Below are positions 17,911 through 60,916 of a DNA stretch of 64,000 nt, one piece after another. The notes under the pieces were generated by a model. That model worked only from the letters and a program-made list of their open reading frames with translations, made no database searches and had not been told where the DNA came from. The position numbers and the translations under genes are program-made. The stretch covers positions 18,249 to 82,248 of the forward strand of contig NW_026516367.1 in the NCBI RefSeq assembly GCF_025602895.1. The letters are read 5' to 3'. Source of the stretch: Polychytrium aggregatum. Its lineage: Eukaryota; Chytridiomycota; Chytridiomycetes; Polychytriales. The first letter of the stretch is position 1. The number at the start of each line of letters is the position of its first letter.

Positions 17911-18957
17911 TTAGTACTTGGGGACACACTTGTAGGGAGTAGAGCAGTCCTTGAGGGGGAAGAGGGGCCAGGACTGGTAGGGGGTCATGGGAGAGAGACC
18001 CCAGTTGTCCTCGATGGTGGAGACGATGGAGTTGTGGTCAAAGAGGGTGTTGTCGGTGGAGTTGACCTGGCAGGAAACAGCAGAGCCGAGGAGGAGAGAG
18101 TAGACACGGTTGTTGTTGGCATCGCCGGGGCAGTTGTTGACAAGGTCAGTGCAGTTGGCGAGCTGGCCGGGGGGGTTGGTGCTGTAGTACAGGTTGTAGG
18201 CGGTCTCGTCCTCGTCGTAGACGATGTGGATGAGAGTGCGGACGGCGTTGAGGGCAGAGTTGTTGAGGACGGGCTCAATGAAGCCCTGGAGCCAGTTGGA
18301 GGCGTAAGCGATGGTGCTGTCGTGGGCATCGTTCATCTGGTTGGGAACGTAGTACGAGTAGTCGGGGAGGGTACCGGCGGTGAGATCGGCAGCCCACTCG
18401 GTCTCAGAGACCAGGTTCTTGCAGCGGGTGGCGTTGGTCTGGATCTGCATGTAGGAGATGAAGGGGTTGTGCTTGCGCTGGTAGAGGCGGTTGGGGGTCT
18501 TGACGGTGCCGTTGGGGAAGAGCTCGTCACCGGCGCCGTGGCCAGTGAAGCAGTTGCCGGGGTAGTTCTCGGAGTAGATCTTCCAGGTGTAGCCAGCGTT
18601 CTCGAGAGAATCGGCAATGTTGGTACGGCCGGTGATGTTGAAGGAGTCGTCACCGTTGTCACCGTTGATGATGGTGTTGGTGGCGGGGTCGATCAGATCA
18701 CGGTAGGTGGACTGGCCAACGGTGGACCAGTAGTTGGGCTGGGAGGGGTGGACGGTGCCGTGGTAGTTGGTCATGAGGAGACCGCGGGCAGCCAGGGAGG
18801 CGAAGTAGGGGTCCTTCATGACATCGGGGTAGTCGTTGTTCTCAAGGATGACAAAGATGAACTTGTCAAAGTACTTGCCCTTGGCGGGAGCAGCGACGGC
18901 CGAGACGGCGAGGGAAGCAGCAGCAAGAGCAGTGGCGGCGACGGTCTTGAAAAGCAT
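17911..18957 (-). CDS. Secreted phosphoesterase (acid phosphatase-like, PF04185 type)
   Basis: An intronless gene of 348 residues. An Ala-rich signal peptide (MLFKTVAATALAAASLAV) is followed by FDKFIFVILENNDY and GTVHPSQPNYWSTV. These are typical of the phosphoesterase family that includes fungal acid phosphatases and bacterial phospholipase C-like enzymes. DGDD-like (NGDNGDDSFN), SENYPGNCF and HIVYDEDE supply further metal-binding acidic and Asn positions. Several N-glycosylation sequons are present. It is expected to release phosphate from organic esters outside the cell. Codon choice is strikingly uniform (nearly all C- or G-ending favoured codons), suggesting high expression. The absence of introns also sets it apart from most neighbours. 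Confidence 0.82.
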   Translation of the reverse strand: MLFKTVAATALAAASLAVSAVAAPAKGKYFDKFIFVILENNDYPDVMKDPYFASLAARGLLMTNYHGTVHPSQPNYWSTVGQSTYRDLIDPATNTIINGDNGDDSFNITGRTNIADSLENAGYTWKIYSENYPGNCFTGHGAGDELFPNGTVKTPNRLYQRKHNPFISYMQIQTNATRCKNLVSETEWAADLTAGTLPDYSYYVPNQMNDAHDSTIAYASNWLQGFIEPVLNNSALNAVRTLIHIVYDEDETAYNLYYSTNPPGQLANCTDLVNNCPGDANNNRVYSLLLGSAVSCQVNSTDNTLFDHNSIVSTIEDNWGLSPMTPYQSWPLFPLKDCSTPYKCVPKY

Positions 18958-21049
18958 CTTTGCGGATCCTTGAGCAGTCGAGGAGAGGAGATTGCTGGTG
19001 GGTGAGGACGGAGAGGGAGAGGCGGCAACGCGGCGTATTTATGCCCCGACCGTGGTCGCTGCAGCCCGAACGCCTCCTGCTTGGACGCTCTGCATGTTCG
19101 GGCGCGAACATTCGGGACAACTGAAAGGACGAGAAGCGGGAAGGCGGGTGGTCTGCAGTTGCAGCGCGTGCGCTTGGATGATTCCCCAGCCGGAAGGCCA
19201 GGACTGGATGCATGCGCCGGGGGGGCCTCAAGACCAAGGGCCGCGTGGGAACGGGCGCGCGCGACGGTGATTGGGCAGGGGGTGATACAGAGGGGAAGTG
19301 CGGGTGCGAGTGCGGGTGCAAGTGCGACTACCAGCAGAACCGACTGGGCGAACAGAACTAACAGCGCCAGCTGAGCGAACAGAGCGAACAGAACCAACGG
19401 AGCGAACAGAGCCAACAGACACCAGCCCGGAGCGCACGCATACATCCCCAACAAGGGCAAGCATATGTCTCTGGCTCAGCGCCCTTGTCGCCCCCGCGAC
19501 GCAAGCGGGGGCTGGCAGACCAGTGGCCCGTGGGCTGGATGGCCGCGAACGTGCGCTCGCTGTCCACGAGCACGCAGCCCCACTCCAGCGCAGCCCGACC
19601 AGTCGCACATCCCCTCGCGGCACTGTTTGTGACACGGCGCGCGGGAAAAACTGCTCGGCAACAAAGTTCCCACCGGGCCGGTGCAGCGCCGCGCGTTTGG
19701 CGGCGGCATGCCGAGTCGGCCTGGCCTGCGCGTGTGCTCTGGAGCAAGGGGGAGGCGGCGTGTGCGAGACCAGAATGCGGCTGTTGCGCTGTGGAGCCTT
19801 GCAAGAAGTCTTGCGGGGAGCATGCACACCGCCAAGGAGCAATCTGTGTCGAATGTCCTTCAAGTCTGTGTCGAATGGCTTCTGGGCAGCCAGCTAAGGG
19901 GGCCGGCGGGCCTGTGGGGTCTGTCGTGCGGCGCGTGGAGAGTGTGTACAGGGGAAGTACTCCCATCGTGCTTTCTCGGATGCGTCTCGGCCAGCGAAGG
20001 ATTGCGTCTGGAATGGCCGATGGATTTGTCCAATAGCATGTGCTCGAGCTGGTCGCTTCCGAAAGCACGCAGCCGGACTGCCTTTGACAAACCCGAGGTC
20101 GTGCATCCAAAGTTCGCCAACGGAGAGCAGCACATCGGGCGATCGGGACGCACAAGCTGCTCAAGCTGCATTCGCATCCACATTGACCCTGCCTTTTGCA
20201 CTTGCACTTGCACTCGCACTCGCACTCGACCAATGCATCCCAACGACCAGCCCGCGCAATCCGCCCAGTCATGACCAGCCACGACCAGCCACAGATTTCT
20301 GTTTCGCGCAGCGGTGCATGCTCATCGAATCCACGCCGAAAGTTTTGGTTGTGTCCACCCGCGCTGGATCGAGCGCAGGCGCAGGAGAGAGGGGAGAGAG
20401 GGGAGGCACGCGTGGGAAGAACAGCGCTGGCGGGGCGGCCTGAGCCGACAGAATCGACGGGATCGGTGGATTGCAGCTGCGGAGGCAAGGGAGCGAAGGA
20501 AGAACCTTTCGGTGCTGTGCCGATCGATGCGATCGGGAATGCTCATGTTCGACGAGCCGAAGGTTGTCGCTGCCAATCATACCGCTCTGTGCCGGAGACT
20601 GCCCGCACACAATCAGCACCAGCCAAGGTTTCGGGGATGGTCGCGGCTCGGGCTGGCTTGCCAACTCCCATGCATCCATTCGCTACGGGCAGAGCCACAA
20701 CACCATCCCGAGTCCAGCCCGAGAAGCCTCGACCGGTGAGATCTCCCCTTCGTGCAAACCCGTCATGAATATGGCTACCATAAGCACCTCCATCAGCCAG
20801 GTTCGGACTTTTTGAAGCCCAATAGGATCAAGCGAGGTAGCAGAGTGTGGCAGTCGGCTTGCGGTAGATCCGGGTCAACAGAATCGAGGCTCTAAGCAAC
20901 ATCCAACGAAGCAAGCCGCAGGAAAAGTCTCCCAAATGGTGCTCGATCTCGCCCGAATCGTGTTTGCTTGGCCATTATGAGGACATACGCACTTTTCCCT
21001 GCTCTTCGAGCCTCCCCCCGCCCCACCGCAATTTGAAAGTCAACCCTTG
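18958..21049. other. Gene-free GC-rich region
   Basis: About 2 kb between two minus-strand genes. It holds imperfect short repeats: GTGCGGGTGCGA around 19297-19330, GAGCGAACAGA around 19370-19425 and CACTTGCACTCG around 20205-20235. Overlapping open frames on both strands look fortuitous. The first 100 bases at the low end are the phosphoesterase promoter, with a TATTTATG box-like sequence at 19035-19042. Confidence 0.45.
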
Positions 21050-22754
21050 TTAGAACATAGCAATAATCAGGCCAGCAAGGGCGCTGCCGACGGCAGTCAT
21101 AAAAAGTTGAGCGACGGATCCTCCTACTCGGACGGCACTGGATCTGTTCAAGTTGCCAGATCCAGCAGAGGGGCTGCTGCTGGCCGAAGCGCTGCTGCCA
21201 GGTGCACTGCCTGAGGGGCTGGTGTTGGGAGAGCCGCTTGGAGAGCCGCCTGGAGCGTTGGTGCCGCTGCGGTACCAGGGCTTGTTCACACATGTACCCA
21301 CAGGCTCGATGGTGAGATGAATATTGGCGCGGTTCTGGTCGACATACGTGAGGTAGTCGAGAACGACGTGGCTAGTGAATGGGGTGATGTCATGGCTGAG
21401 GGAGACAAAGCCAGGCTGGTTGGGGGCAAACCATTCGGTTGTCACGTTCTGAACGAGACCCTGCTCGATTGTGGATGAGGTTGAGGATTGATCGGCAGCA
21501 AAATCGTCTTTGCTCCAGACGGTGATCGTGTAGCCGAGGGCGTTGAGGACGGCGCGCACTCGATCGTCGATGTCGCCATAGGGAGGGCGGAAAAAGTTGG
21601 GAACCTGGCCGGTGGTGTTGTAGATCAGGGCTTCCGTGTACTTGATCTCGGCCACGATCTGCTCGTTGGTGCAGGCAGTCAGAGGGTGGTGTGTCCAGGT
21701 GTGCACGCCAATCTGGTGGCCGTCGTTGTACTCATCGAGGACGACATTGGGTCTCATGATGAGGTTGGTGCCGACGATGAAGAAGGTGGCCTTGATCTTC
21801 ATCTTGTCGAGTTGTTGGCGGATGGCAATGGAGTCGTAGTGATTGAGAGTATCATTGGTGGGCCCGTCATCAAAGGCAAGGCCCCAGGTACTCTGTTGGG
21901 GGCACTGGAAGACATCGGGTTGGTAGTACTGGGTGGCAGTAGTGCGCATGCACAGGTTGTAGGGCCAGTAGCAATTGGCAACGGCTGCGAGCGGACCAGA
22001 ATAGGGAGGAGATGAGTATCATTCCTCGGCAGGATTGCCCACAGGGTTCACCAACTCAAGACTGCTCCATTTGGGTGAGCCATTGACAGGTGTAGGATCG
22101 ATGATCCGGAGGAGCGTATGGAAAGCACTCACGATCAGAGTTGTAGGTTACCGTGGGCCCATTGATGTATGTGGACACGGCGATGTTGAGGACATTGGCC
22201 GGCACAACCGATTGCACATAGGCCCAGGCGCTGGAGATCCAAATCACAAGACACTGCACAGTCAGGCATGGGGAACTCGACACACACCAGGCCCATAGTC
22301 AATCATGCCATCACTATAGTCGGGATGTTTCAAGTCACGAGCACTATCTGCCTCAGCTATCCGACTTACTCTTGGACAAGTGGGTCCTGCAAGAACGAGT
22401 CCGGGATGAAGTGTTGTTGGTCGATGGGAGGCCAGGCTGTAAAGTCCCGTCGACCATATCGCACGAGGACGGGGTTCGGGTGGGTTAGTTATGCCGTGAT
22501 GTCGGTGACTGTGCATCCTTGGTAGCGATCAAGCAAGCCGAGTTTTCGAAACGAGTCGAGGGCAAACAACTACCTGCTGGCATGGGGGGAGGAATCTGCA
22601 GCGAAGGTGCCATTGCGGCAGCGAGGCTCAAGGCCATCGGACTGCCCGCTGAGACCTTGGCGTTCGCGATCGCATGTCCAGCGGGAGCTGCGTTCGAGCG
22701 CCAAGCAAAAGCCAGAGCGGCAAGGAAAAACGTCTTTGGCGAGCGAGGTTGCAT
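21050..22754 (-). CDS. Chitin deacetylase-type polysaccharide deacetylase (GPI-anchored)
   Basis: Four exons on the minus strand (22754-22574, 22436-22370, 22230-22133, 21984-21050) encode 426 residues. A signal peptide (MQPRSPKTFFLAALAFAW) leads to a short Pro-rich region and then the NodB catalytic domain. AFDDGP carries the catalytic base and metal Asp. HTWTHH supplies the metal-binding His pair. RPPYGD and LSHD complete the active site. A Ser/Gly-rich linker and hydrophobic tail indicate a GPI signal. The enzyme would convert wall chitin to chitosan. It is a close paralogue of the gene at 24217-25894: exons 2 and 3 are exactly the same lengths (67 and 98 nt) and intron phases are identical. 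Confidence 0.88.
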
Positions 22755-24216: not shown

Positions 24217-25894
24217 ATGCGTTCGCTCCTGATCTTCAGTGTGCTCGGCGCCGTCCAAACTGCTTATGGCCTCGGTTTCGACCTGAGCCACATCAACTTG
24301 GGCGGCTTCAAAATTATGGCCGCCGACTCCTCGACTCCCTCGGCCACCTCAAGCGCCGCGGCCACGGTCTCGACTGGCCAACCTGTCCTTCAGATCCCTC
24401 CTCCGATGCCTGCAAGTAAGTTGTATCCAGCATATATGCTCTGTGCATTCTGCCGGCGGTGACTCTGGCACTCCTCTTGACACTTCCCGATGTAAACCAT
24501 CGTTGTTTGACATCGACAGCGTGGCCGTCGGTCGACCAGTCCAAGTTCATCACGGGCGATCTCCTTAAAGATCCCCTCGTGCAGGAGTAAGCAACTTTGG
24601 GTCTCCGGCTCCGCCGCCCACGATCTGTTTTGCAGCTGTCGTCATGTGTCGCACACCGCCACAGATTTTTTCTGATCCCCAGTCGATGCTCGTTGCTTCA
24701 GAGCCCTGGCATATGTCGAGTCTGTCGTCCCGGCCTCGTTGCTGAATCTGCCTGTGTCGACCTACATCAAGGACTCGACGGTTCAGTACAAGTCGGATCG
24801 TAAGTGTCCTGGCCTCTGCGTCCGCACAAGTTGGCTCGATTCTGCCCACGTTGTTGTGAAGGCCGGCTCTATCGTCGGCGTGTTCTCAGCATTGCCTGAC
24901 TGAATCTCTCCATCCTGTCCATTTCTATCATCTCCATTACTGCCCACGCAACTTTTACTTGATAGCCACGGCCTACTGCTATTGGCCCTACAACCTCTGT
25001 GTTCGCTCGGCCCCGGGGAACGGCTACGAGGCTGATGTCTACACTTGCCCTCAGCCGGGAACCTGGGGTCTCGCCTTTGACGACGGGCCCACGATCGATC
25101 CTGTCTCTCACAATGACTCGATTGCCATCCGCACCCAGCTCGATGCCATGCACGTCAAGGGAACCTTCTTCATTGTCGGATCGAACGCCATCCAGAACCC
25201 CCAGATCATTCTCGATGAATACAACGACGGCCAGCAGATCGGCGTGCACACCTGGACACACCACCCTCTGACTGCCTGCACCAACGAGCAGATCGTGGCC
25301 GAGATCAAGTACACGGAGGCCATCATCTACAACGCCACTGGCCAGGTTCCCAACTTTTTCCGCCCTCCCTATGGCGACATCGACGATCGAGTGCGCGCCG
25401 TCCTCAACGCCCTCGGCTACACGATCACGATCTGGATCGAGGACGACACGGCCGCCGACCAGTCCTCGACTAGCGCTGCGCTTGCGACCAAGCTGATCAA
25501 TCAGGCGACGTCGACTTGGTTCCCAAACTCGTCAGTCAGCTTCGTCTCACTCAGCCACGACATTGACCCCTTCACCAGTGGTGTGGTTCTTGGCATCCTC
25601 GAGTATGTTCAGCAGCATCGATCCGAGATCAAGCTCAACATCGAGCCCGTCGGTACCTGTGTGAACAAGCCCTGGTACCGATCGGGCATCAGCGGCCTGC
25701 AAAATGCCACCACCACGACCGCCTCGGTATCTGCATCCCGCACCGGCACCTCAACCTTGACCAGCACCAATGCGGCGTCCCCAACCACAGCCGGATCAAA
25801 CCTCATGTCCGGTGCCTTGGCCACATCGGTGTATGCCACTCTTCCTCTTCTTGCATCCGCCACTCTTATCCTTGCGCTTGGCTTGGCCATGTGA
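24217..25894 (+). CDS. Chitin deacetylase-type polysaccharide deacetylase (GPI-anchored), second paralogue
   Basis: Four exons (24217-24415, 24520-24586, 24702-24799, 24966-25894) encode 430 residues. A signal peptide (MRSLLIFSVLGAVQTAYG) precedes a Ser/Thr-rich spacer and LQIPPPMPA, which is shared with the paralogue. The NodB domain keeps AFDDGP, HTWTHH, RPPYGD and LSHD, so the catalytic Asp and the metal-binding His are intact. The C-terminus is Thr/Ser-rich and ends in a hydrophobic stretch, again a likely GPI signal. Compared with the left paralogue, the catalytic core is nearly identical over long runs while both ends have diverged. A change from VWSKDD to IWIEDD lies in the core. Chitin-to-chitosan conversion at the wall is the expected role. 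Confidence 0.88.
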
Positions 25895-30457: not shown

Positions 30458-31570
30458 TCAGAGCTCGCTGTGACCGTGGTGATGGTGGTGATCGTGGTGG
30501 TGGTCGTGGTGGTGGTCGCCGTGGAAGTGCAGGTGGCCGCCCTCCATCAGCACGCTGACGGATTCGAGGGCAACGAAGCAGACGAGCATGCCGACAAAGA
30601 GAGAGATGGTCGTCCGCTCCTTGCCAGCATAGCGGAGGGCCGTCGGGAGCAGCTCGTGCAGAGAGATGCAGGCCATGATGCCACCTACCGCCGCCAGGCA
30701 GCAGCTCAGCACCTCGGGCGAAAGCAAGTCCTTGAGGAGGTATCCCCCGACGACGACGCCCAGAGGCTCGGCCAGGCCGTTGAGCAGCGTCATGACCAGA
30801 ACCTTCCAGACGGAGCCCGTCGCAACATACAGCGGGATGGCGACGGCCATGCCCTCGGGAATGTTGTGCAGCATGATGGCGAGGGCCAGTTGGATGCCCA
30901 GGCGGATGTCAGAGAGGGTCGAGAGGTAGACGCCCAGGCCCTCGGGCAGGTTATGCAGGGCGAGGGCCGCAAAGGTGACAAACGAGGTTCGGAAGAGCTC
31001 CTTGCGGCCCTTGGCGGAACTGATGTCGACATGGCCCGGCTGGGATGGAGCAGCAGATGATTTCTTTGAGTCATCGGTGCGGGTCTTGGCATCGGTGTGG
31101 TCGGGTCCGTGGTCGGGTCCGTGGTCGTGGGCGTGGTCGTGGGCGTCTTCGGGGAAAAGATACATCTCCAAGAACAGGAACAGTCCAACGCCAACAAAGA
31201 ACCAGATCATCGTTGTGCGGGCACCCAGGGCCTCGACCGACTCGGGAACAAGATCGACAAAGGTCATGTAGAGCATCACGCCGGCCGAGAAGGACTGCAG
31301 AACGCCGAGCAGGGTCGAGGTCGACTTTGCTGTTCCGGAGACGCCGATGCAGGCGCCGAGGACGACGGCGACGATGCCACCGACAAAGGTGCCGAGACTG
31401 GCCAGGAAAGCGAGGGCAAAGGCTCTGTAGTGCGGGTCGGTGACGAAGATGCTGAGGAAGGAGGGCAGGCCGCTTGACCCGGAGGAGCACGAGCCGTGGT
31501 TGTGATCGTGGTCGTGGTCATGACCGGCGGGAGGATGCGAGCAGGTGCCGGGGGCGTTGAGGATGTCCAT
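30458..31570 (-). CDS. ZIP-family zinc/metal transporter
   Basis: An intronless gene of 370 residues with about eight hydrophobic segments. Helices 4 and 5 carry the ZIP signature in the forms ALHNLPEGLGVYL and MLHNIPEGMAVAI, whose His, Asn and Glu residues form the binuclear metal site. Helix 1-2 has SLGTFVGGIVAVVLGA. Helix 3 has SFSAGVMLYMTFVDLVPES. His/Asp-rich metal-sensing stretches occur at the N-terminus (HDHDHDHNH), in the variable loop between helices 3 and 4 and at the C-terminus. The pattern is closest to the ZRT3/ZupT-type branch. Yeast Zrt3 releases zinc from the vacuole, but localisation here is open. It diverges from nicotianamine synthase across 977 bp. Confidence 0.88.
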   Translation of the reverse strand: MDILNAPGTCSHPPAGHDHDHDHNHGSCSSGSSGLPSFLSIFVTDPHYRAFALAFLASLGTFVGGIVAVVLGACIGVSGTAKSTSTLLGVLQSFSAGVMLYMTFVDLVPESVEALGARTTMIWFFVGVGLFLFLEMYLFPEDAHDHAHDHGPDHGPDHTDAKTRTDDSKKSSAAPSQPGHVDISSAKGRKELFRTSFVTFAALALHNLPEGLGVYLSTLSDIRLGIQLALAIMLHNIPEGMAVAIPLYVATGSVWKVLVMTLLNGLAEPLGVVVGGYLLKDLLSPEVLSCCLAAVGGIMACISLHELLPTALRYAGKERTTISLFVGMLVCFVALESVSVLMEGGHLHFHGDHHHDHHHDHHHHHGHSEL

Positions 31571-32547
31571 CGCTGCTGATGGGCTTGAGCCTGGGCTTGA
31601 ACTTGGGCTTGGGCTTGGGCTTGTGCTTGTGCCTGGGCTTGGGCTGCACGATCAATTCCAGAAAGAACCGACGCGGTGAAGCGCAACGAAACGACCAAAA
31701 CGACCAAACGACGGGGGCGGAGGCGATTGGCTGGCGCGATTGGCTCGAGTGCGGGTCGATCCAGGCGGCTGCACTGCCACAGGGCAGCCAAAGCAACAAA
31801 GCCATCGGATCGATACTGGCCGAGCAATACCACCGACATCATCAGCCGGGCGACACCACCACCATCAGTCGGGCGCTGCTGCCGATATCGCTGTTCGGTC
31901 TCGAGACAAGCAACACCGTCGCCCCCGCCGTGTCCGGAGCGGCTCCCCTCGTTCTCCCGCCGGCCATTGGCTGCTGCTGCCGACATGCCTGGCGCGCGGT
32001 CGTGGCTGGGCCAATTCTCGGGCCTGCGATTGGCCAAGGGTCGCTCTTGCGTCCGCCAACAAGTCTGCCGTCGACAGATCCATTGATAGCGACTGGGGAC
32101 ATTTCCCTTTGCAGGCATAGGCCAGAGTGCACGGAGGTCAGACAGGCCCTGGTCCATCAGCCGGCAATGCGGGGGAAGACTGTTGCACGCCTGTATCGCA
32201 CTCGCCCATCAGCCCATCAGTCAAAATAACGGCATCGGACTCCATCGCATCATGGTCCCCCGGTGTTGGGCCGCGATCGTCCGCACAGTCGCTCGGCCGA
32301 CTTATCCGTCCGCAGCTCGTCTGGGCCGCTCTTGCTCCTCCTCTGCTCTTCTGCAACCGCCGGGGCCATTGGCCGTTCAAAGTCGCCGCGTCTCCCTGGC
32401 ACTCTATACCCGCTTGCTCGTGCTTGCGACATCTCGCACCGCCCGCGATCCAGCAACCTCCGGAGGCCTCGCCAATCACACCCGTCGCCTTGCTCTCTTC
32501 TTGCTCTGCAGCTGTCCAATCTCCCACCACTCGCCCGGCCTTGGAAC
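31571..32547. promoter_or_regulatory. Divergent intergenic region between ZIP transporter and nicotianamine synthase
   Basis: The two flanking genes are transcribed away from each other, so this stretch holds both promoters. A GGGCTT/GTGCTT hexamer run at 31581-31647 lies in the 5' leader of the ZIP gene. No zinc-responsive element could be assigned with confidence. Confidence 0.5.
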
Positions 32548-36213: not shown

Positions 36214-38620
36214 TCACTGCGCGTCCGATCTTGGTTCCGGAGTGAAGAAGGGAGACACGCTGGACGAGGGAGCCATCGTCGGCGCGGACGACTCGGGCTC
36301 CGAGGCAATGGAGTTGCGGCGGGTGGCATCTCCATTGAGGGTCGAGGCATCATCGTCGCGCTCGCGGATGACGACAATCTCGTCGAGGTCGGTCTTGGTG
36401 TCGGCCTTGGCAGACTCGGAGAAGGCGCCGTCGGCAGTGTCGTTCTTCTTCTGGACAACGACCTTCTTGCCCAGGGCAGGGTCCTCGACTTCGTAGTCGC
36501 GCAGGGTCTGGGTCTCCGGGTCAGGAACGAGGTCGGTGACGATGCAGACATCGACGACGGGGGAGGCGACATCGGTACGGGGTCCGCCCCACGAGCGCAG
36601 GTTCCAGGTTCGAATCGAGTAGATGTTGATGAAGAAGTTGACCCAGGGGTTGAGGATGAGCATGAGCGGGTACATCAGCGCGACCTTGGAGCGCTTGAGA
36701 ATGATGGCAAAGATCGAGACGAGGATCCAGAAGAACAGCAGCGGCACCCAGATCATGTACATGACCGTCGGGTCAAACTTGGATCCGGCCGCCATCTGGA
36801 AGAGAATGATGAAGAAGAAGAAGCCTGTCGAGCGGCACGAAAAGTTGGCGGTCACGTAGGTGAGCAGGAGCGGCGCACGGGCCCACAGCTTGGCACTCGA
36901 CAGGAAGTAGACTTCGTTGGCAAAGGCACCGAGCAGCCAGCGGCGGCGCTGCTTGAGGAACTGCTTCCAGGTGGCAGGGGCCTCGGTCTTGGCACGGGCC
37001 GTGGGGCAGAATCCGATGGCATAGCTCTTTTCCTGCTCCATCAGAAGATGGGTCAGGTAGCGGTCTTCGCCGAGGTAGTAGCGGTGGTAGTTGAAGATAT
37101 TCTTGGTGTCGAGCTCGGAGAAGTAGGTCTCGGCGGCGACGGTGAGCTGCTTGAGGCGGATCATGGTCTGGATGGCGGAAAGGCAGCAACGACGAGACGA
37201 GAGCGGTGAGTTTGGCTGCACAAGCAATGTGCCGATGGATGGTGCAGCAGGCAATGTGCCGATGGATGGTGCAGCAGGCAATGTGCCGATGGATGGTGCA
37301 GCAGGCAAGGCATTCGTTCGCTTACCAGAGCACCGGGAAGGCAGGTGACGCCACCCAGGCCAGACTCGAGGGCTCGGTTGAAGACCTGGCCGGTGACATA
37401 CTCAACGTCCTGGAACCACCACCAGAACTTGGGTTTCTTGGCGAGAACCGAGATGAAGCCGGTCATGCCGACGAGCTTGGGGTTCTTGTCGAGGGCGGTG
37501 GCAAACTCGACCATGGCGTCCTCGTACAGCACAATGTCCGAGTCGATAAAGAGGATCAGGGTCTCGTCCTTCTGGAAGTAAGGGTCGTAGCGGATCTGGT
37601 CAAAGGTGAGGGCCTGGACGTGGCGCTTGCCGCCGTGTGGGAAGCGGTTGACAATAAAGTAGACGCCGCGGTAGATGAGGCGGACCTGGGCACCATAGCC
37701 GCCCTCGGGCCGCTCGCCGCCGTGGGTCAGGACCTTCATGAGGGCCAGGAAGAGCTCCGACTCCTCGGAGCTGTCGAAGCTCAGGAAAACGGTAACTTGG
37801 GCACAGGGGTACTCGCAGGTGACGATCGAGTTGACGGCCGTGATGAGGGCATCGGGTTCCTCGTTGTAGATGGGCATGACGACGACCATCTTGGGAACTT
37901 GCTTGAGCTGGTCGACCTTTTGGCGGGCGTTTTCGAGGACACTGGGGTCGCCGCGCTTGGCGTTGGCCCAGCTGCGGTACTTGACGGCATAGATGATGCC
38001 GAAGGTGACTGGGGCGATCAGCAGGGTGATGTACATGAACACCAAGCCGACAAAGACCAGTTGGTTGACCCACATGGGGAACTTTGGCAGACCGGCGACG
38101 GGGATGAGGACATAGAGGAACGGGAAGTAGCAGAAGCGCAGGACCAGGAACAAGATCGAGGACAAGAAAGGCATGGTCTGCAGGGGACAGGGCGGCAGGG
38201 TATTCATGGTCAGCAGACGCGAAGTGTCATGTGCATGTGGCATCAAGTATGTCATGTGCATGTGGCATCAAGTATGTGCGTGAACTAAGTGCATGAACTA
38301 TGTGCATGAAGCAGATGGCAGATAGCATGGGGGTCGTGGATGCAGATACCGACCTTGTTGAAGAATCCCTTGGACGCAACCCCGGCGAGACACATGCCAT
38401 AGAGGAAGCAGCCGGTAAAGATGGCAAAGTCAAGGAAGGCCACGAGAGTGAGGGCGCCCTGGACGTAGCGGACCCACACGGGCAGGTCCCAGATGCCGGC
38501 GTTCACCGAGTCGCTAAAGGTATTGATGGTGGTGGAGACATTCTGGCCCTGGGCATTGGCCGAGACGGCGAGCAGGGCCAGGAGTGCCAGCGTGGGCACC
38601 AACTTGGAGGCAGAGGTCAT
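36214..38620 (-). CDS. Chitin synthase (GT2 family)
   Basis: Three exons on the minus strand (38620-38354, 38177-37326, 37167-36214) encode 690 residues. The first 24 residues resemble a signal peptide (MTSASKLVPTLALLALLAV), followed by membrane helices. The GT2 core shows VVVMPIYNEEPDALITAVNS, FIDSDIVLYED and WWWFQDVEYVTGQVFNRAL. GEDRYLTHLL and the catalytic QRRRW follow in exon 3. At least four transmembrane helices then surround TGFFFFIILFQMAAG and IWVPLLFFWILVSI. The C-terminal about 120 residues are a charged Ser/Thr-rich cytosolic tail. The enzyme polymerises UDP-GlcNAc into chitin at the plasma membrane. It is shorter than most class I-III enzymes and lacks a myosin domain; its class was not assigned. 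The donor after exon 1 (GTCGGT) is weak, so that junction is less certain. Confidence 0.85.
37224..37304. repeat. 27-bp direct repeat x3 inside a chitin synthase intron
   Basis: Three perfect 27-bp copies, beginning gcaatgtgccgatggatggt, lie in the 158-bp intron between the donor-domain exon and the EDR/QRRRW exon. The unit is a multiple of three, and neither flanking reading frame meets a stop within the array. Confidence 0.92.
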
Positions 38621-51650: not shown

Positions 51651-51692
51651 TAAAGACTGGCGCGCTCGTACCTGTTAGTGAATTGGAAAGGG

Positions 51693-52007
51693 GAGGAAGG
51701 AAGGAAGGAAGGAAGGAAGGAAGGAAGGAAGGAAGGAAGGAAGGAAGGAAGGAAGGAAGGAAGGAAGGGAAGGAAGGAAGGAAGGAAGGAAGGAAGGAAG
51801 GAAGGAAGGAAGGAAGGAAGGAAGGAAGGAAGGAAGGAAGGAAGGAAGGAGGAAGGAAGGAAGGAAGGAAGGAAGGAAGGAAGGAAGGAAGGAAGGAAGG
51901 AAGGAAGGAAGGAAGGAAGGAAGGAAGGAAGGAAGGAAGGAAGGAAGGAAGGAAGGAAGGAAGGAAGGAAGGAAGGAAGGAAGGAAGGAAGGAAGGAAGG
52001 AAGGAAG
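51693..52007. repeat. (AAGG)n microsatellite, about 315 bp
   Basis: A nearly pure AAGG/GGAA tetranucleotide tract broken only by a GGG variant near 51770 and a GAGG variant near 51850. It produces long artificial open frames on both strands (GRKE or FLPS repeats). Confidence 0.97.
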
Positions 52008-52160
52008 CGAGATCAGTGGATCGTGCGGTGTACGCAAGTTGCGGGCTTGTTGGTCCCGTTGCATCAGACAACTGGAGAGCAAGTGAACCAGACCCATGAC
52101 CCCAGCACACTCGATACTCGATTACTCCCCACCGCTCGATTACTCCGACAGGAGCACCAC

Positions 52161-53969
<1,809 letters not shown>

Positions 53970-54976: not shown

Positions 54977-56094
54977 GCCACCCAACGCCTTCACGATCTA
55001 CGCGGCGGTATCGTTATCGCTGTCGTTGTCATGACCCATGCTGGCTGCCGAACCCGCTGACCTTGGCAAGTCGATCAGCGCTGCCTGCGGCGGGATTGAT
55101 GATCGTTCGGCTGCCACTGTTTTGCGATCGGCGCTCTCGGTCGTGGCTGATCCTGCGGGCGCTGCAGCAGCCTTGGGTCTGCCCCGAGACCTTGCCCCGA
55201 GACCTTGCCCAGAGACAATGTCGTGGGTTCTGCGCGGCTGCCTGTCCCTCCTCAGGAGCACTTCCGCAGCCGCTTTGTTCGCCCCACGCACGACATGGAT
55301 ATTTCTCAGCGCTCCCGCGCTCTCGACTCTTGCGGTGGGCAGCAGTCTCCATCTGCATTCTCCCAAGTCGACATCGTCTCTTCAGATCCGTTCATCGCTC
55401 TTCAAGTCTGTCGACTCTCCAGTTTCATCCCTCGCTCCAAGACACCTCTCCCGGCACCTTCTCTCCGGCAAGATCCCCGTCCCGTCCCTCGCGCCCAACG
55501 TCCGCGCCCTTTCCTCAAATTTTCCGCCGTTTTCTCCGTCGTGCAGACCTTTGTTTCTGCCACCGTCGCCGTCGTCGTCGCTTTCGCCATCGCCTCGCCA
55601 TCGCTCCAACCGCCGTGCGTCGGAACAATCTGCCTCTGCTTCCGAACGGCTTCCGAACGGCTTCCCAACAGTCTCGGAGCCACCTCCATCGCCCTCACCA
55701 TCCTCCATCGCCCTCACCATCCTCCAACGGCCTGCGTTGACTGCTGTGCGGCTCCGATCGCTTGTGCATCGCGTGCCCCCCCTGCATCACTCGCAGTTCC
55801 CGCCCGCTGTCCGAATCGCTCGACGGTCTTCGGCTCTCTGGGACGCCTTTGGCGAGGCTTTGCTGCCCCAGACCATAATCTGACATCACGCCTCGTCGAC
55901 ACCGTCCCTCGCGAAGCAAGGAACCTCACCATTGTATCTCTCGAGCCTTGCACACGCCCATTGCAATCCAATTGCAATCCCACTGCAATCCCGCTGCAAT
56001 CCCACTACAATCCTGCCAACTTCGCGCACGGCATCGCATCCCTCGGCTATCACCATCTCAGCCTCGCTTCCTGGCGTCGTCGCTTTGTCCAATT

Positions 56095-56142
56095 CCGCAA
56101 TCCCGCAATCCCGCAATCCCGCAATCCCGCAATCCCGCAATC
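56095..56142. repeat. 8-bp tandem repeat (ccgcaatc) x6
   Basis: Six perfect copies just upstream of the start codon of the F-box/ankyrin gene, preceded by a looser array of TGCAATCC units. Confidence 0.9.
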
Positions 56143-56165
56143 CTCACCCGTCCTCGGCTACTCCA

Positions 56166-57302
56166 ATGAGCGGCTCAATTCTGTCCCCAGATGGCTTGCC
56201 CATCATGGCCAGCCAAGCGACCCTGGCTCCGCTGCAGCTCGGCTCGCTACCTTACGATATCCAACTCCACCTCATTGGGTGCATGTCCGACATCCCGTCG
56301 CTGGTGGCTCTGTGTTCATCCTGCAGGCACTTTTTCTCCGACCCGCTCTACCGGGCATACTTTGATCGCCGCCTCATCTTCCTGATCCGCCACGGCCGCT
56401 GGAACACCAAGGGGCTGCTGCCGTTCGTCTATGCCTCGCGCATCGGCCATATGCCCATCCTGCGGCTCCTGCTGTGGTCCGACTCGGCCCAGTACCGGGA
56501 GGCCTTTGCTGGCCCCTTCGACTCCAACTTTGGCTCAGCCCTGGCCTGGGCCGCCCGCATGAACCGCTTCAAGACCGTCGAGTTTCTGATCCGCAACTGG
56601 ATCCACAACCCGCCCACGTCGCTCGATCCCTACATCACCGAGACGGCCTCCCTCGGCCACCTCGAGACCCTGCAGGTCCTCCTGGCCTTTGACCAGGCAG
56701 TGACTCCAAAAGCCGTCGACAGCCCGCCGCCGGCACCGCTCCTGGGTCTCTTCTGCTTCCACATCGAAAGCAAGGGCGAGGACTTTGAGTATCGCGATGC
56801 CTTTTTCGAGTCCTACAAGATGGGCCACCTGCACATTATCCGCTATCTTCTCTCGCACTGCCGCCAGAGCGGCCTGTCACTGAATCTGCCAAAGTACAGT
56901 CTCCTCTTCCTGGCCTGCGAGCAAGGCCGCGCCGACATTGTCCAGTTCCTCATCAAGGATGGCATCGACCTCAACTTTGGCCTGGGCCGGGCCCTGCGTC
57001 TGGCCCACATCCACCACCGCGACGAAGTCTATACCCTGCTCGTCCAAAACGGCGCCTCCAGCTGGATCCAGATCATCGGCATGTCCCTTCAGACCGTGCG
57101 GTCCCTCCTGCAGTACCTCACTGACTACCGCATCTGGGAACTCTACCGGGTCTTTTTCCTATACATGTTCCTGTACTGCGCCTCTACAGCCATTCATCAC
57201 TTTGTGCTGTTTTGGAGAGGCTCGCTCTCGGCGGTGGTCTACTTCAACTGGGTCGTGGTCGGCATCGTGGGCTTCCTGCTGGTCTCGACGATCTGCTCGT
57301 GA
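56166..57302 (+). CDS. F-box/ankyrin-repeat protein with two C-terminal membrane segments
   Basis: A single exon of 378 residues. The ATG at 56166 is preferred because upstream in-frame sequence is tandem-repeat DNA; a second ATG follows 14 codons later (MASQAT). Residues about 28-70 (LPYDIQLHLIGCMSDIPSLV, then CSSCRHFFSDPLYRAYF) resemble an F-box. Ankyrin-type helices follow, for example YASRIGHMPILRLLL, AARMNRFKTVEFLI, YKMGHLHIIRYLLSH and ACEQGRADIVQFLIKDG. The last 60 residues contain two hydrophobic segments (YRVFFLYMFLYCAST and VVYFNWVVVGIVGFLLV). An F-box protein would recruit Skp1/Cullin ubiquitin ligase. Membrane anchoring of such a protein is unusual. The F-box call is moderate, the ankyrin call good. 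Confidence 0.72.
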   Translation: MSGSILSPDGLPIMASQATLAPLQLGSLPYDIQLHLIGCMSDIPSLVALCSSCRHFFSDPLYRAYFDRRLIFLIRHGRWNTKGLLPFVYASRIGHMPILRLLLWSDSAQYREAFAGPFDSNFGSALAWAARMNRFKTVEFLIRNWIHNPPTSLDPYITETASLGHLETLQVLLAFDQAVTPKAVDSPPPAPLLGLFCFHIESKGEDFEYRDAFFESYKMGHLHIIRYLLSHCRQSGLSLNLPKYSLLFLACEQGRADIVQFLIKDGIDLNFGLGRALRLAHIHHRDEVYTLLVQNGASSWIQIIGMSLQTVRSLLQYLTDYRIWELYRVFFLYMFLYCASTAIHHFVLFWRGSLSAVVYFNWVVVGIVGFLLVSTICS

Positions 57303-59115: not shown

Positions 59116-59766
59116 TTACATAGATGGGACATGGAAGACGATCCCGTCAATGTCCTTGTTCGCCTTGATCTGGCACGAAAGACGCGAGCTGTCGAAAGGA
59201 CGATCATCAAACACAGATGCGTGGGTGAGTAAAGCTGACGAGTGATGTATGCTGAAACAGATCTAGGCCATCGACGCCCTGGAAATGGCTGCCGATTGTG
59301 GGAAACACACCCATCACGCTCATGTAAATCCTCAAATCCAACGCCATCCTGCTTCGGCATTCTCTGCGACGGCGACTCACTTCTCGGCCCTTCCCACGGC
59401 GTATTCGAGCATATCTTCTTCGCTGTCGGACGGCGGTGGGATCTTGCTGACAAACGACGGATCGACTGTTTCACACACACACCCAAAAGACACACCATCT
59501 CATTAGCCCTCGAGGTGTCCAAATCGATCGCGTGGAGCACCCCCTGGATGTGATCGGAGGCGAGCCCTTCAGCTTGCACCGTCGTGGCTGCATCGGTCGG
59601 TCAAGAGTGCCTACCAATGACATGACAGGTAGCGCATTCGAGGTTGCCACCACAGGCACCTTCGATCGACGGGATCTCCTTGGACTTTGCAAATTCCATG
59701 AGGGACATGCCCAGAGGCACGCTGAACACCTTGTCTTTGCCTCCGGTAGCAAAAGTCACTTGGATG
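59116..59766 (-). CDS. Adrenodoxin/Yah1-type [2Fe-2S] ferredoxin (probably the C-terminal part of a fused gene)
   Basis: Three exons on the minus strand (59766-59615, 59465-59381, 59188-59116) encode the whole ferredoxin fold. They give IQVTFATGGKDKVFSVPLG, GACGGNLECATCHV with the C-x5-C-x2-C cluster ligands, VDPSFVSKIPPPSDSEEDML (the acidic redox-partner helix of adrenodoxins), and SRLSCQIKANKDIDGIVFHV with the fourth Cys. Mitochondrial ferredoxins of this type pass electrons to Fe-S cluster and haem A synthesis. An independent start is hard to find. Only about 155 bp separate the first supported exon from the stop codon of the AIM32-like gene, and no mitochondrial presequence fits there. 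A possible tiny exon (MDQSDTLHRSW...) lacks presequence character. A fused reading is described under findings. Confidence 0.82.
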
Positions 59767-59921
59767 CTGCCACGGACAATACGTGCATGTCAGAATCCGC
59801 GTATCCCGAGTTCTCAATCGCCAACGCCGGCCAGCTACCTCCTCTCGGCCATACGATCTCGGATTCCAAGATCGATGGAGCGTATCCGACTGATCCATCA
59901 GTCAGAGGCCGGCGGGGAGAG

Positions 59922-60916
59922 TCATCCGCAGCTGCGTCTCCGTGCCGGGGACTTGGGGGCCGGGTTTGTCACTTGTGCATGGGCAATCTGTACTGCACCC
60001 CACCTATCTGTCGAGCCAGCGTCTTGGGCTTCCTGCGATGAGCTGGGGGCACTTGAGGAGTCCGAGCTTTGACGGAGCAGTTCAATCTGTTGTTCTTTCG
60101 AAAGCCCCAAGCGGCCTCTCCAGTGACTCCAGAGCTCGCGGCCAGAATCGAGCGATGCTAGCAGCTCGTCGGCCTTTTCGCTGGTGAGATTACCGTACCA
60201 GTCACCGGATGGGAAGGCTCTGGCCGTTTTGGGGGATGGCGACGATGGGAGTGAGTCGATACGCCTCGTCCCTGCAGAGCGCTTCCAGTCAGCATCGCCC
60301 ACTCGACTTACATGACATTGCCGGCATACTTGTGGCCGCCGATGTGCGAGATCTGGAAGACCCGGATATCCGCGCGGGTCGCTGTAGCCTGCTTGAGCTT
60401 GGTGAAGAGTGGACGGCCAAGGTCGCCACAGCGACAGTCTCGCTCGCCGTGGGTGCAGACATAGAGATCGATCGATTTGCCACGCTGGCTGACTTCGTCG
60501 AGACCCTGGACAGGGTTGCCAGACTCCAGCCGCTGCAGGAGCAGCGGGATCTGCGACTGGGCGACCGAGGGAAAATAGATCTGGTCCGGATAGAGCGTCA
60601 GTGCATAGGCGGGCTCGGCAGGCGGCGCTGTCGAGGTGGGCGAGGCGGCAGGCCGAGCATCGGAGCAGCTGAACTTGATCTTGAGGAGGTTGAGCTGCGA
60701 CGAGAGCGATCCGATGTAGGCGTTGGTGTCCTCGACCTTGGAGGGCCAGCGATCGATCCCCGATGACAAGATCAGATGCTTGCTGTTGGACGAGGCCGAT
60801 CCGACAAAGCCTTCGGGCTGGCTGTGGGTGCTGAGGCGAGCACGCTGGCTCCAGAGCGCACCCAGCGAAGAGGGCCAGCGGGGGCCAGCGACGACGGATC
60901 GGAGGAGCGAACGCAT
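59922..60916 (-). CDS. AIM32: AIM32/Apd1-like thioredoxin-fold bis-histidinyl [2Fe-2S] ferredoxin
   Basis: Two exons on the minus strand (60916-60312, 60219-59922) encode 300 residues if read to the first stop. MRSLLRSVVAGPRWPSSLGA is a clear mitochondrial presequence. The Suc_Fer-like thioredoxin fold follows, with VCTHGERDCRCGDLG giving the C-x8-C pair and HIGGHKYAGN giving H-x-G-G-H. In Apd1 and Aim32 these four residues hold a [2Fe-2S] cluster with two Cys and two His. The exon junction restores NVIAFPSGDWYGN. The domain ends near LWSHWRGRLGLSKEQQIELL and a Ser-rich linker begins. Yeast Aim32 is a mitochondrial redox protein. A GT donor inside the linker could splice to the ferredoxin exons immediately downstream. 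Confidence 0.85.

Follow-up and report, generated by a model that had tools for sequence, protein, structure and literature searches.

We propose that, in Polychytrium aggregatum, an AIM32-type gene and the adrenodoxin-type ferredoxin exons behind it are one gene, whose predicted spliced product is a single mitochondrial AIM32-ferredoxin protein of 376 residues; judged from the sequence, this is the probable reading. The locus lies on the minus strand (60916..59116) of the window, the whole 64,000-nucleotide stretch of DNA that was analysed, which belongs to contig C74; the genome assembly amounts to 64.7 Mb. The fusion had been put forward in a preliminary description and is now partly supported: the joined frame is open in all three genome copies, the donor score and intron length fall within the range of reference introns, the codons after the donor resemble non-coding DNA, no presequence-like leader lies between the two parts, and a phase-2 intron of the separate YAH1 aligns with the junction. 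On the other side, the original assertion that no credible start fits between the parts went too far.

Gene model and genome copies

As the preliminary description had it, an AIM32 domain and a ferredoxin domain lie on one strand, and both profile matches are above their cut-offs. The spliced AIM32-type protein matches Pfam Suc_Fer-like (PF06999) with 124 bits (cut-off 34.9). The downstream module, an adrenodoxin-type ferredoxin, matches Fer2 (PF00111) with 33.6 bits (cut-off 21), and its best matches among PDB sequences are yeast Yah1 (93 bits) and, second, S. pombe Etp1 (80 bits). Against the ISC ferredoxin equivalog TIGR02007 it reaches 56.8 bits, below the cut-off of 132.1, and the separate YAH1 of this genome is likewise below it (90.6 bits). 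AIM32 gave no match to PDB chains up to E = 1, a scan of viral contigs returned no AIM32 relative, and one prokaryote scan yielded one bacterial ferredoxin, at 46% identity. The gene model is as follows, in window positions.

60312..60916, minus strand: AIM32 exon 1, with the leader MRSLLRSVVAGPRWPSSLGALWSQRARLSTHS and most of the Suc_Fer-like domain, including the bis-His motif
60220..60311, minus strand: AIM32 intron 1, 92 nt, phase 2, CAT/GTAAGT
60004..60219, minus strand: AIM32 exon 2, with the domain end and a Ser-rich linker, 216 nt, both ends phase 2
59767..60003, minus strand: proposed fusion intron, 237 nt, phase 2, TAG/GTGGGG ... TGGCAG/C
59615..59766, minus strand: ferredoxin exon 1, Fer2, with the first three Cys ligands (C-x5-C-x2-C)
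59381..59465, minus strand: ferredoxin exon 2, with introns of 149 and 192 nt on either side
59116..59188, minus strand: ferredoxin exon 3, with the fourth Cys ligand and the TAA end

Joining donor 60003 to acceptor 59767 removes a 237-nt phase-2 intron and leaves an open frame of 376 residues, which bears out the claimed junction; the two claimed ligand sets are also present in the joined protein. The bis-His motif C-x8-C-x27-H-x-G-G-H occupies residues 154-195, and the ferredoxin motif C-x5-C-x2-C-x36-C starts at residue 312, its last spacing agreeing with the family pattern x(35-37). The sequence CTGAC stands about 23 nt before the ferredoxin exon. Within its first 33 residues the AIM32 leader has five R/K and no D/E, with a helical moment of 0.60.

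The locus is assembled three times, on contigs C74, C301 and C364, in almost identical copies that differ over 60916-59116 at two places, with a single substitution within AIM32 intron 1 and a one-C difference in the length of a C-run of the proposed fusion intron; they are too alike for measuring selection. The fused 376-residue frame is intact in all three. In the window copy unspliced AIM32 comes to 300 residues, retention of the proposed fusion intron bringing a stop at 59919, at the stated distance of 155 bp from the ferredoxin exon; in C301 and C364 it comes to 355 residues, with a stop 11 nt inside that exon. This copy-dependent ending fits an intron, and a homopolymer read error would look alike; we give the 1-nt difference little weight, because it falls in a C-run and may be such an error. 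YAH1, COX15 and an APD1-like gene are present in two copies each against three of this locus, which reflects either haplotypes assembled separately or a recently gained copy.

Proposed splicing into the ferredoxin exons

The ferredoxin frame opens at 59789 and contains no in-frame ATG ahead of the domain; therefore an upstream exon ending in phase 2 is needed. A listing of GTs from 60400 to 59811 with matching phase and a single-exon leader open back to an ATG gave 13 candidate donors. The donor of AIM32 exon 2 (60003, TAG/GTGGGG) scores 2.2 bits, and that of AIM32 exon 1 (60311), also in phase with the ferredoxin, scores 6.8 bits, its use skipping exon 2. Seven others cut the AIM32 domain or use the AIM32 tail or other frames (2.9 bits at 60329, inside AIM32 exon 1, 1.9 at 60198, the remainder -3.1 or lower). 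Four start exons lie between the two parts:

59839..59852, minus strand: stand-alone start exon MAERS-, ATG 59852, donor GAG/GTAGCT, 1.1 bits, 72-nt intron
59855..59898, minus strand: stand-alone start exon MDQSDTLHRSWNPRS- (MDQS), ATG 59898, donor ATC/GTATGG, -0.7 bits, 88-nt intron
ATG 59980, minus strand: start stub MHN-, donor -0.5 bits, 206-nt intron
ATG 59898, minus strand: start stub MDH-, donor -6.1 bits, 124-nt intron

The splice signals were compared with 11 reference introns of this genome: AIM32 intron 1, two of the ferredoxin, five of YAH1, two of COX15 and one of the APD1-like gene, whose provisional name comes from an HFGGHKFAGN motif and weak matches (E 0.03 and 0.4). The set excludes two further COX15 introns, IFT46 and other intron-bearing genes. 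Nine were placed by continuity of a conserved domain, those of COX15 and APD1 partly via the sequence of their families, and two, in the YAH1 leader, by frame and the plausibility of the resulting presequence. Their lengths are 92, 149, 192, 253, 175, 186, 199, 134, 93, 218 and 297 nt, and their donors score 6.8, 2.2, 4.0, 1.5, 5.2, -0.1, 3.9, 2.7, 0.1, 4.4 and 5.6 bits.

A weak donor had been named as the main doubt about the fusion, and this doubt has mostly been removed. Donor 60003 lies at the 97th percentile of the GTs of the window (204 of 6,799 on both strands reach its score); it equals the ferredoxin's own next donor (2.2), exceeds three of the 11 reference donors, and has the G at +5 found in 10 of them, while its 237-nt intron is inside the reference range of 92-297 nt. 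The fit of phase is not rare, since the 2.9-bit GT in exon 1 and the strong donor of AIM32's own intron are in phase as well, and the in-frame join alone is modest evidence, because chance would supply 0.084 in-phase donors with such a score in the 159-nt AIM32 tail, assuming an even spread. Donor 60003 also has a second acceptor 72 nt away, which would give an AIM32 ending after SCG (read from the sequence, unscored).

Coding character was assessed with codon scores trained on nine window ORFs, out of 16 outside the locus scoring above 40. The 27 AIM32-frame codons past the donor have a mean of -0.525; a mean this low is reached by 13 of 2,890 coding windows in a leave-one-out count and by 5 of 268 windows at this locus, and against random stop-free windows the tail ranks at the 25th percentile, ordinary for non-coding DNA too. 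The 25-codon linker before the donor has a mean of 0.001, which ranks at the 12th percentile among coding windows and at the 84th among random stop-free ones. For comparison, the accepted exons average 0.225 (AIM32 exon 1), -0.105 (domain part of exon 2) and -0.124 (ferredoxin), and the mean over stop-free intron windows is -0.367. The AIM32-frame tail after the donor thus looks non-coding and the linker is ambiguous, at a locus where the codon signal is weak; codon usage and the chance expectation together back the fusion modestly.

The alternative that survives best, though we consider it rather unlikely, is that of two tandem genes, in which AIM32 ends without a further splice or after one small final intron, and a short exon close ahead of the acceptor opens a ferredoxin that has no presequence. 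All four start exons match the frame and the acceptor, which is where the earlier denial of a credible start fails. Among GTs the MAERS- donor (1.1 bits) ranks at the 95th percentile, and it lies within the reference scores, two of the 11 being lower, but it has C at +5, where 10 of the 11 have G, and every one of the four donors (1.1, -0.7, -0.5 and -6.1) is below the 2.2 bits of the fusion donor. At 72 and 88 nt, the introns that follow MAERS- and MDQS also fall short of the reference minimum of 92 nt, whereas those of MHN- and MDH- (206 and 124 nt) are not. The denial of a presequence holds, as none of the leaders resembles one: the MAERS stretch has three R/K against two D/E and a moment of 0.36, the MDQS stretch two against two and 0.51. 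Two genes would have 66 bp from the AIM32 stop to the MAERS ATG in the window copy and an overlap in the other two.

That one gene gives several products, with the fusion intron spliced or kept (AIM32 alone) or with exon 2 skipped, is improbable as the main account. Exon 2, at 216 nt with phase-2 borders, can be skipped so that the 6.8-bit donor joins exon 1 to the ferredoxin in frame, but the end of the AIM32 domain is then lost; retention of the fusion intron leaves a complete AIM32, but with tails that differ among the copies. A ferredoxin presequence exon upstream of AIM32, with AIM32 nested in the ferredoxin's first intron, is very improbable: among the four single-exon leaders found from 63000 to 60918 with donors of at least 1 bit (two with a common donor), the basic candidate MWHRRVTQTPMICLCRRVACG (61744-61680, donor 2.8 bits) would need an intron of 1,913 nt with a gene of the same strand inside it, over six times as long as any reference intron (maximum 297 nt).

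A separate YAH1, known systems and proposed working

A second, stand-alone YAH1 homologue, which the preliminary description had left to be looked for, was found on contigs C168 and C160, and rules out that the window ferredoxin is the only one of the genome. Translated from the C168 copy, it has 171 residues, a basic leader and the C-terminal tail ATRNMRVDGSKPTPH, which the window ferredoxin lacks; it matches yeast Yah1 with 145.6 bits and is 45% identical to the window ferredoxin. The ferredoxins of the genome were sought by protein query, which very distant ones may escape; a Pfam Fer2 search of the genome, run exon by exon, gave no match despite their presence.

The inferred intron between the leader and the domain of this YAH1 is in phase 2 and splits a Ser codon AG/C, and this Ser aligns with the Ser split AG/C at the proposed fusion point. 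In their last introns the two genes agree in phase, with positions one codon apart; the middle introns do not coincide. The shared AG/C phase-2 position suggests that AIM32's last exon may have replaced the presequence exon of a YAH1-like gene, a reading that depends on the inferred YAH1 leader. A copy of such a gene would have lost its presequence exon, and the last exon of AIM32 would have captured its phase-2 acceptor.

The ferredoxin of S. pombe Etp1 is partnered with the heme a synthase Cox15, whereas the proposed partner in the window is AIM32; the Cox15 of this genome is on contigs C268 and C171, where the ferredoxin protein query had no match. Etp1 is the nearest precedent for an AIM32-ferredoxin fusion, in that its adrenodoxin-type ferredoxin is the C-terminal portion of a larger mitochondrial protein (residues 516-618 according to an extract of PMC6123783), the window case being a predicted splice; an extract of PMC7140478 words Etp1 as a Yah1-Arh1 fusion. 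With Yah1, FDX2 and adrenodoxin the window ferredoxin has in common the Fer2 fold family and four Cys ligands, and it differs from them in that no presequence of its own was found.

The AIM32 part resembles yeast Aim32 and Apd1 in its Suc_Fer-like domain, basic leader and C-x8-C-x(24-75)-H-x-G-G-H, the motif given for bis-histidinyl thioredoxin-like ferredoxins in a passage of PMC11138216; it differs in that the same chain appears to continue into a ferredoxin domain. Excerpts of PMC8482512 and PMC11138216 call the function of Aim32-type proteins not well understood or elusive. The former places yeast Aim32 in the matrix and the intermembrane space with a proposed role in redox quality control, and the latter links the His ligands to proton-coupled electron transfer. 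Yeast Apd1 with a 25-residue C-terminal tail bound iron and gave no complementation (excerpt of PMC11126956), which counts against the fusion; the parallel is loose, because Apd1 is a cytosolic protein whose targeting depends on its C-terminal Trp (PMC11126956).

Provided that the 237-nt intron is truly spliced, as we infer, the AIM32 leader would import the whole chain into the mitochondrion, two Cys and two His of the AIM32 domain would hold one [2Fe-2S] cluster, and the ferredoxin domain, connected to the AIM32 domain by a Ser-rich linker of about 24 residues, would bind a second via four Cys. Ferredoxins of the adrenodoxin type receive their electrons from a ferredoxin reductase. The fused domain would be supplied by the mitochondrial enzyme and, tethered as it would be, would act as the donor for the redox role of Aim32 by passing electrons directly along the chain to the bis-His cluster. 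A stand-alone YAH1 is present, and therefore the fused ferredoxin domain need not serve cluster assembly. Cleavage of the chain after import is possible. We put forward tentatively, at somewhat less than an even chance, the full picture of a proton-coupled bis-His centre and an all-Cys centre in one chain, created by exon capture at a phase-2 intron, with the ferredoxin as Aim32's dedicated tethered donor and intron retention still giving AIM32 alone.

If spliced, AIM32 plus ferredoxin would unite known domains in a new combination, a case comparable with Etp1; among the papers listed by searches of the open full-text literature, no title or abstract opening describes a fusion of AIM32/Suc_Fer-like and ferredoxin, a scope that does not establish absence. 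A real fusion would make the mitochondrial ferredoxin reductase and ferredoxin the likely source of electrons for Aim32-type proteins, and would offer a single protein for direct measurement of transfer between differently ligated [2Fe-2S] centres.

Other genes of the window and genome

Two ORFs about 3 kb apart match polysaccharide deacetylase (21053-22018, minus strand, 112 bits; 24860-25891, plus strand, 109 bits), and the ORF 37164-38267 (minus) has a partial Chitin_synth_2 match of 44.7 bits. An FMN oxidoreductase of the old-yellow-enzyme type (Oxidored_FMN) is spread in consecutive stretches over two overlapping ORFs at 52164-53271 (minus), with an intron probably dividing them; beside it, at 51653-52121 (minus), a simple tandem repeat shows as long runs of SFLP-type codons in two overlapping ORFs. 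Further matches are to a phosphoesterase family (17914-19038, minus), a ZIP zinc transporter (30461-31651, minus) and ankyrin repeats (55884-57299, plus). Elsewhere in the genome, in keeping with a zoosporic fungus, there are matches to the Fungal_trans family, and the intraflagellar IFT46 is matched in two sets, on contigs C27/C113 and C113/C405, as if duplicated.
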